Shown: piece by piece, positions 21,159 to 21,236 of the stretch
Numbering within the stretch: the first letter of the stretch is position 1
Layout of the letters: each line of letters starts with the position of its first letter
Assembly (NCBI GenBank): GCA_947497905.1
Contig: CANMIH010000002.1
Span: 186,001-250,000, forward strand
Length of the DNA: 64,000 bases
DNA from: an uncultured Pelagimonas sp.
GTDB lineage: Bacteria; Pseudomonadota; Alphaproteobacteria; Rhodobacterales; Rhodobacteraceae
Direction of reading: 5' to 3'
Notes under the pieces: model-generated
Told to the model about the DNA's origin: nothing
Database searches by the model: none
Seen by the model: only the letters and a program-made list of their open reading frames with translations
Translations under genes and position numbers: made by a program

Positions 21159-21236
21159 TCTCTCTCTCTCTCTCTCTCTCTCTCTCTCTCTCTCTCTCTC
21201 TCTCTCTCTCTCTCTCTCTCTCTCTCTCTCTCTCTC
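21159..21236 (+). repeat. (TC)39 dinucleotide microsatellite
   Basis: Seventy-eight uninterrupted bases of alternating T and C, beginning 12 bp after the stop of the exported-protein gene and ending 19 bp before an intrinsic terminator. Such a long perfect dinucleotide tract is rare in bacteria and should be length-unstable by slipped-strand mispairing. It is outside any credible gene, so length change would alter the 3' untranslated RNA rather than a reading frame. On the opposite strand it reads as an Arg-Glu repeat, which is an artefact. Confidence 0.98.

Follow-up and report, generated by a model that had tools for sequence, protein, structure and literature searches.

The perfect dinucleotide repeat (TC)39 behind a small exported-protein gene of an uncultured Pelagimonas sp. 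is very probably, judging from comparison among related genomes, one form of a conserved CU-rich element that acts at the RNA level behind its gene. The best explanation as a whole, proposed tentatively and with somewhat under an even chance of being right, is that slippage would have lengthened a CU-rich 3'UTR element that docks to the leader of its own or of a sibling transcript. The compact transcription unit would then run from a promoter-like box through a hairpin with a UGGGGG loop, a Shine-Dalgarno sequence, an ORF (signal peptide, basic tail) and the CU element to an intrinsic terminator. The window, that is the whole stretch of 64,000 nt analysed, belongs to genome G000 (5,005,967 bases, 43 contigs), and its relevant features are collected in Table 1.

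Table 1. Positions of the unit and its neighbours in the window
Feature	Positions	Strand	Evidence or remarks
P0003, 130 aa, divergent neighbour, synteny anchor	19967-20359	-	without Pfam match
Promoter-like box GCGCCCAGATTTCGCCCAATTC	20549-20570	+	conserved; alignable across 14 units and, in two genomes, upstream of the second gene
5' leader hairpin TTGTAGG-TGGGGG-CCTACAA, loop 20584-20589	20577-20596	+	covariation
Shine-Dalgarno-like CGGAG	20599-20603	+	sequence
P0001, 178-aa exported protein of unknown family	20611-21147	+	signal peptide, all-beta middle, basic C-terminal tail
(TC)39, putatively expanded CU-rich 3'UTR element	21159-21236	+	sequence, TRF; counterparts in 12 of 14 units
Intrinsic-terminator-like hairpin, 13-bp stem	21255-21284	+	scan gave - strand, 13 pairs; TTTTT also behind it on +
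TlpA-like thiol-disulfide oxidoreductase, convergent neighbour outside the unit	21305-21868	-	AhpC-TSA match, E 4.9e-20 (Pfam)

The tract was resolved by TRF as a repeat of period 2 with 39.0 copies, 100% matches and a score of 156. All other dinucleotide runs in the window stop at five copies or fewer, and the genome holds no second tract of (TC)11 or longer. The original prediction of an uninterrupted and highly unusual run in a 3'UTR was thus borne out. Its placement of the run between the stop of an exported protein and a terminator is also correct, since the P0001 ORF lies upstream and the terminator-like hairpin downstream, with 11 nt separating the TAA stop from the tract and 18 nt separating the tract from the hairpin. 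This hairpin probably acts in both directions because it is A/T-flanked on both sides, and behind P0001 the gene order continues with the convergent TlpA-like gene and then argH. Two more short tandem repeats, of period 21 and 12, were recognized by TRF at 25349-25387 and 61369-61408 of the window.

A census of CT runs of at least 18 nt was made in 394 genomes of the family with the patterns D(TC)9 and V(CT)9, which jointly catch each such run once. The former returned 11 runs in 11 genomes and the latter four runs in four, giving a total of 15 runs in 14 genomes. Seven of the 15 are located at the syntenic site of P0001, all on the sense strand, with lengths of 78, 70, 63, 33, 30, 27 and 25 nt, and they include all three runs longer than 60 nt. 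Six of these seven lie behind a P0001 orthologue (G000, G273, G241, G213, G196 and G397), and in G339 the seventh, of 70 nt, follows a shortened copy of the gene at the equivalent syntenic position. The eight runs away from the site measure 18-32 nt, some of them at contig ends or in low-complexity sequence. Two long runs at contig ends, in G030 (C46, L017) and G405 (C45, L016), stand in low-complexity sequence that does not resemble the remainder of either genome, and are possible contamination. The 11-mer CTCTCTCTCTC was found at the site in seven of the ten unit-bearing genomes, always on the sense strand, and at only six other places in all, five of which are within long ORFs while the sixth, in G397, lies directly behind a stop and before a terminator. 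Simple ORF calling in G000 and G418 predicted 322 gene 3' ends, where CT runs reach at most 7 nt once the two units are excluded. Perfect-run length varies from 17 to 78 nt across units and differs even within Pelagimonas, in which TC15 (30 nt) was observed in one genome and TC33 (66 nt) in P. phthalicica.

A profile of the divergent neighbour P0003 matched 74 of the 394 genomes, and the region beyond it was read in all 74. Together with four unit-bearing genomes recovered through P0001 or genus searches (G020, G273, G418 and G419), this gave a survey of 78 loci. Sixteen of these carry a TGGGGG hairpin of at least four pairs, and 14 were counted as units; G031 and G234, in which the stem is without GG/CC closure and no start lies at the usual distance, were set aside and are both among the 64 leader-less loci, two of which end at contig ends (G413, 522 bp; G399, 755 bp). 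The 14 units are spread over 12 genera (G353 and G418 share a genus, as do G241 and G419), and two of them, G406 and G285, were revealed by the synteny survey itself. The CU element, counted as at least 12 CTC/TCT within 40 nt, a cut-off fixed after the data were seen, is present in 12 of the 14 leader-bearing units compared with none of the 64 loci without a leader. Within the neighbour-gene set of 74 loci, from which the four genomes found by other routes are excluded, the figures are 9 of 10 and 0 of 64 (Fisher p = 9e-11, a value that ignores shared descent). The 12 cases are not 12 independent events because the units share descent, and the joint occurrence of promoter, leader, ORF and 3'UTR may reflect no more than their being one unit.

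In all 12 units the element lies on the sense strand 0-21 nt behind the stop; it takes the form of one perfect repeat in some and of a series of interrupted CU blocks in others. The latter arrangement is seen in both Tropicibacter species, where the blocks are partly presented in hairpin loops on unrelated stems (GGGCGCTG/CAGCGCCC versus GGGCTGGAC/GTCCAGTTC). A further CU-loop hairpin follows the (TC)31 of G273, and G285 has a 13-bp hairpin with the loop TCTCTCTC and CU runs of at most 8 nt. Compared with dinucleotide shuffles, three CU-loop hairpins were equalled in 0, 0 and 10 of 500 cases, counts that overstate their weight because the hairpins were chosen by eye. None of the flanks of seven perfect tracts paired better than shuffles at p below 0.05, which limits loop presentation to the interrupted elements. 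The (TC)31 of G273 is directly followed by an imperfect TG-repeat tract (L015:1564-1590), a second dinucleotide repeat at the same site. An intrinsic-terminator-like stem stands behind the CU element in most units. Two leader-bearing units, G020 and G077, are without CU repeat, and only CCTCTCCCC remains in the former.

In all 14 units a hairpin is located directly upstream of the Shine-Dalgarno sequence, with a variable stem and an invariant UGGGGG loop, and by eye GGAG or GAGAG precedes the start in 13 of them and AGGAC in G285. The alignment of the 14 related sequences, made with MAFFT on strings cut around the motif, gave a covariation score of 0.542 compared with at most 0.138 for slid partners, with none of 500 shuffles as high; 17 cells changed on both sides, against a shuffled mean of 6.2. 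An nhmmer model of the 14 upstream regions matched window 20500-20612 with an E-value of 1.5e-26, the window being one of the 14 training sequences. Rfam release 15 gave nothing above the gathering score for window 20400-22000, which holds both leader and tract, and the UGGGGG-loop leader is put forward as a candidate for a new RNA motif.

P0001 and its G196 orthologue had no Pfam match above the cut-off, and the AlphaFold model of P0001 (mean pLDDT 62.5) retrieved nothing from the PDB by Foldseek at E <= 0.001. A profile of six P0001 proteins, run against the 394 genomes, matched 15 at E <= 1e-8, with E-values under 1e-50 in eight, and the orthologues are 43-69% identical to the reference row. 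Weaker matches in G351, G227 and G293, the three inspected most closely, are without CU tract. Genus searches yielded two more orthologues, in T. naphthalenivorans (G418) and P. phthalicica (G419); those for the genera of G000, G196 and G213 reached one genome each and added nothing, and a scan of genome contigs with a single protein gave no relative. Several orthologue-bearing genomes could be put to named ones, each G handle being assigned to its name through an identical 3'UTR. A plasmid search returned 17 records that match, by position and annotation, only the tlpA part of the query, and a second search returned none. In four units the ORF is reduced, to 43 aa (G406), 102 aa (G285), 63 aa (G339) and 59 aa (G077), with a signal-peptide-like start and a basic tail retained and the middle absent. 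Leader and CU element have outlived the loss of the protein middle in G406, G285 and G339; in G077 the leader is present and the CU element is gone together with the terminator.

The same upstream region was also found before a second gene. When 858 kb of G000 and G418 were searched with a covariance model of the leader, their own loci came back at 52.7 and 52.8 bits, together with two more matches. One of these lies at about 40.5 kb of contig C1 in G000 (22.6 bits, E 0.0033), and the nhmmer model of the upstream regions pointed independently to the same gene, with E-values of 1.1e-5 in G000 and 2.5e-5 in G397, the G397 locus (L049, C22) having been added by hand to the target. The gene encodes a membrane-like protein of about 115 aa (G000 C1, about 40.5-40.9 kb, L060:512-910; G397 C22, L049), 49% identical between the two genomes, with no Pfam match and no relation to P0001 as far as Pfam shows. 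Its G397 copy has a 10-bp leader stem, ACACATCCGG/CCGGATGTGT, around TGGGGG and a post-stop CU run, (CT)7C, which is the sixth off-site copy of the 11-mer; in G000, CTCTCT lies between stop and terminator. With promoter-leader and post-stop CU both present, the same two RNA parts therefore recur on a second transcript. Neither the leader hairpin nor this second gene figured in the original prediction. The other covariance-model match, in G418, precedes a Wzz-like chain-length gene (18 bits, E 0.08) and makes it a tentative third member, the Wzz naming being a reading of the protein rather than the result of a family search. At this locus (C23, about 101.6 kb; L083:1596-1644, minus strand) a TTGG-TGGGGG-CCAA hairpin stands 18 nt before the start, and the upstream box is not in common. 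A leader search over a further 800 kb of G000 had a best E-value of 0.65.

These observations point, on comparative grounds, to an undescribed control of a small gene set via the mRNA end. The CU element would work as RNA, an unstructured (CU)n that is exposed once the ribosome leaves and that would serve as a docking site offering many registers. Its repeats would pair, through G-C, A-U and G.U, with the purine-rich leader, that is the G5 loop and the GGAG/GAGAG Shine-Dalgarno, either on its own mRNA (cis) or on sibling mRNAs that share this leader (trans), and translation or decay would be tuned as a result. The number of repeats would set the number of registers, and the extreme repeat length may have arisen by neutral slippage from a CU-rich seed that is itself under selection. 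RNA-RNA pairing as the mechanism is advanced with reserve, its probability being judged a good deal nearer to one third than to two thirds. In predictions, a (CU)12 probe bound unit leaders with a mean of -13.0 kcal/mol compared with -6.3 kcal/mol for 681 other leaders. C12U12 and (CCU)8 probes are predicted to bind them as well or better, so the pairing is non-specific, and the UGGGGG loop alone is predicted to contribute only -4.4 kcal/mol; the leader must also open in part. Selection for pairing with G5 should moreover favour C-runs over CU, which counts against pairing. A stronger and rather unlikely version would make the CU microsatellite and the UGGGGG-loop leader two halves of a slippage-tuned RNA rheostat, in which repeat number sets the strength of control over a small regulon (P0001, the second membrane-protein gene and perhaps the exopolysaccharide chain-length gene); the RNA parts would then be the older function, because some lineages' transcript has lost most of its protein.

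Alternatively, the element might be a natural Rho-utilisation site, at which Rho would load behind the stop as the ribosome leaves and either end transcription or trim the 3' end, the intrinsic terminator then serving as a second stop. (UC)n has little G, no structure and an abundance of the YC dinucleotides to which Rho binds. This is the main rival because (TC)15 is an established artificial rut, at which, according to the available portion of the source, Rho terminates efficiently both in vivo and in vitro, provided that the element is not translated (PMC5021804, citing Guerin et al.). By YC count in the 80 nt after the stop, all nine tract-bearing orthologues tested rank in the top 5 of the 322 gene ends, a set that includes the G000 and G418 units, so that rank 1 of G000 is the unit itself; G020 ranks 75 of 322. 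Predicted folds leave the CU nucleotides mostly unpaired in eight of the nine. In G000 these 80 nt contain 38 C and 3 G, with a predicted 0.93 of the CU nucleotides unpaired, and a C-rich, G-poor, unstructured and untranslated stretch of the rut kind was found there but not in every unit (G285, G406). Rho nevertheless looks redundant because an intrinsic-terminator-like stem follows in most units. The 17 nt of G406 and the runs of at most 8 nt in G285 are seemingly too short for it, CU blocks within hairpin loops (Tropicibacter, G285) are poor Rho substrates, the G397 tract folds as paired in the model, and the leader hairpin is left unexplained. Loading of Rho is accordingly regarded as unlikely, with a probability that is still appreciable.

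Recognition of the CU repeats by an RNA-binding protein that sets mRNA stability, whether of cold-shock, S1 or KH type or a DUF1127-like factor, is less probable again. Short CU motifs in repeats or loops would suit a putative protein reading about 6-8 nt of single strand; the observations fit such a protein and RNA-RNA pairing alike. A comparably low probability is given to a neutral microsatellite, in which an ancestral CU-rich seed would expand by slippage where unselected against, as the length range of 17 to 78 nt, the (TG)n tract added in G273 and the lack of a repeat in G020 would allow. That the tract is simply neutral, as the original prediction had entertained, is unlikely, since 12 of 14 units have retained a CU-rich element in one position and orientation. 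The element persists though flanks cannot be aligned by eye between genera and the proteins are only 43-69% identical; its sense strand never reads GA, the CU blocks of Tropicibacter have survived in interrupted form, and CU recurs behind the second gene with the same leader while long CT runs are rare elsewhere.

Structure at the DNA level, in which a (GA).(TC) mirror repeat would form a triplex or H-DNA between convergent genes, is very improbable. The perfect tract does show the mirror symmetry that this needs, but the symmetry is lost with CU content kept in Tropicibacter and G285, and in G397 and G419 tlpA is either replaced by other genes or separated from the unit by them. The unrelated long ORF that replaces tlpA in G397 (L053:1166-3181, minus strand) leaves CU tract and terminator with P0001. 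Triplex formation, also raised originally, is therefore not a conserved property of the site, where the Tropicibacter blocks are interrupted and partly in hairpin loops. The suspicion of an assembly artefact, to which the 43 contigs of the G000 assembly might lend colour, has a negligible probability and is unsupported, since long tracts recur here in species whose genomes were assembled independently, including 70 nt within a contig of 3,932,460 bases (G339) and 66 nt within one of 2,088,146 bases (P. phthalicica); some uncertainty attaches to the exact length.

Pairing between the two ends of a bacterial mRNA has a precedent in icaR of Staphylococcus aureus, in which, according to the accessible part of the report, a pyrimidine-rich UCCCCUG motif of the 3'UTR pairs with the Shine-Dalgarno sequence (PMC3868564). 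The likeness to the CU unit, within that part of the report, is a pyrimidine-rich 3'UTR motif that can, in the CU unit putatively, pair with the purine-rich 5' leader of its mRNA in cis or trans (PMC3868564). The difference, on the same extract, is that icaR has one UCCCCUG motif, whereas the CU unit has a dinucleotide repeat and a covarying UGGGGG-loop hairpin upstream of the Shine-Dalgarno, and its pairing is weakly predicted.

In the CU unit, the 150 nt after the stop of the 14 units were searched by eye for the CCUCCUCCC motif without a find, CUCUCU repeats standing there instead. Cuckoo RNAs have pyrimidine-rich hairpin loops with a CCUCCUCCC-type motif and are small RNAs processed by RNase E. 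As far as the available text of the sources goes, Cuckoo/CcsR RNAs (CIN1 locus) of Rhodobacteraceae derive from the 3'UTR of a small-protein gene and have a 3' terminator (PMC10253847, PMC8625941). The CU unit, compared with what that text describes, shares the family, the position in the 3'UTR of a small-protein gene and the terminator at the 3' end; it differs in being a single element with CU repeats and a leader hairpin. DUF1127 had no Pfam match in P0001, its G196 orthologue or the second gene. In its putative way of working the unit is somewhat akin to icaR control and to the cuckoo/CcsR RNAs, yet it is no member of the cuckoo/CcsR group, DUF1127 and the CCUCCUCCC motif being absent, and probably none of the icaR type either.

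A long dinucleotide run in a bacterial genome is usually set aside as neutral or taken for a coding or promoter switch. Like the simple-sequence repeats of contingency loci, whose length varies between isolates, the CU tract is slippage-prone and variable in length, here between species represented by one genome each; unlike them, (TC)39 lies in neither a reading frame nor a promoter. Phase variation by frame or promoter was rejected, the tract starting only after the stop, and the CU tract is not a contingency locus with an on/off frame switch because neither frame nor promoter is touched. A literature search found, among its listed results, no paper tying such tracts to bacterial 3'UTRs, which does not prove their absence from print. 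What was observed here is a dinucleotide run at one 3'UTR position across genera, in a unit whose covarying leader also stands on a second gene. Two ideas thereby become testable in cultured strains, a microsatellite as a regulatory part of a bacterial 3'UTR and natural UC repeats as Rho-loading sites. For the latter the closest known relative, on the available text, is the artificial (TC)15 rut of E. coli reporters, which is nearly identical in sequence and likewise untranslated (PMC5021804). As far as that text describes it, the rut is synthetic and placed in a reporter, whereas the CU tract is natural, lies between a stop and an intrinsic terminator, and has a putative role for Rho.
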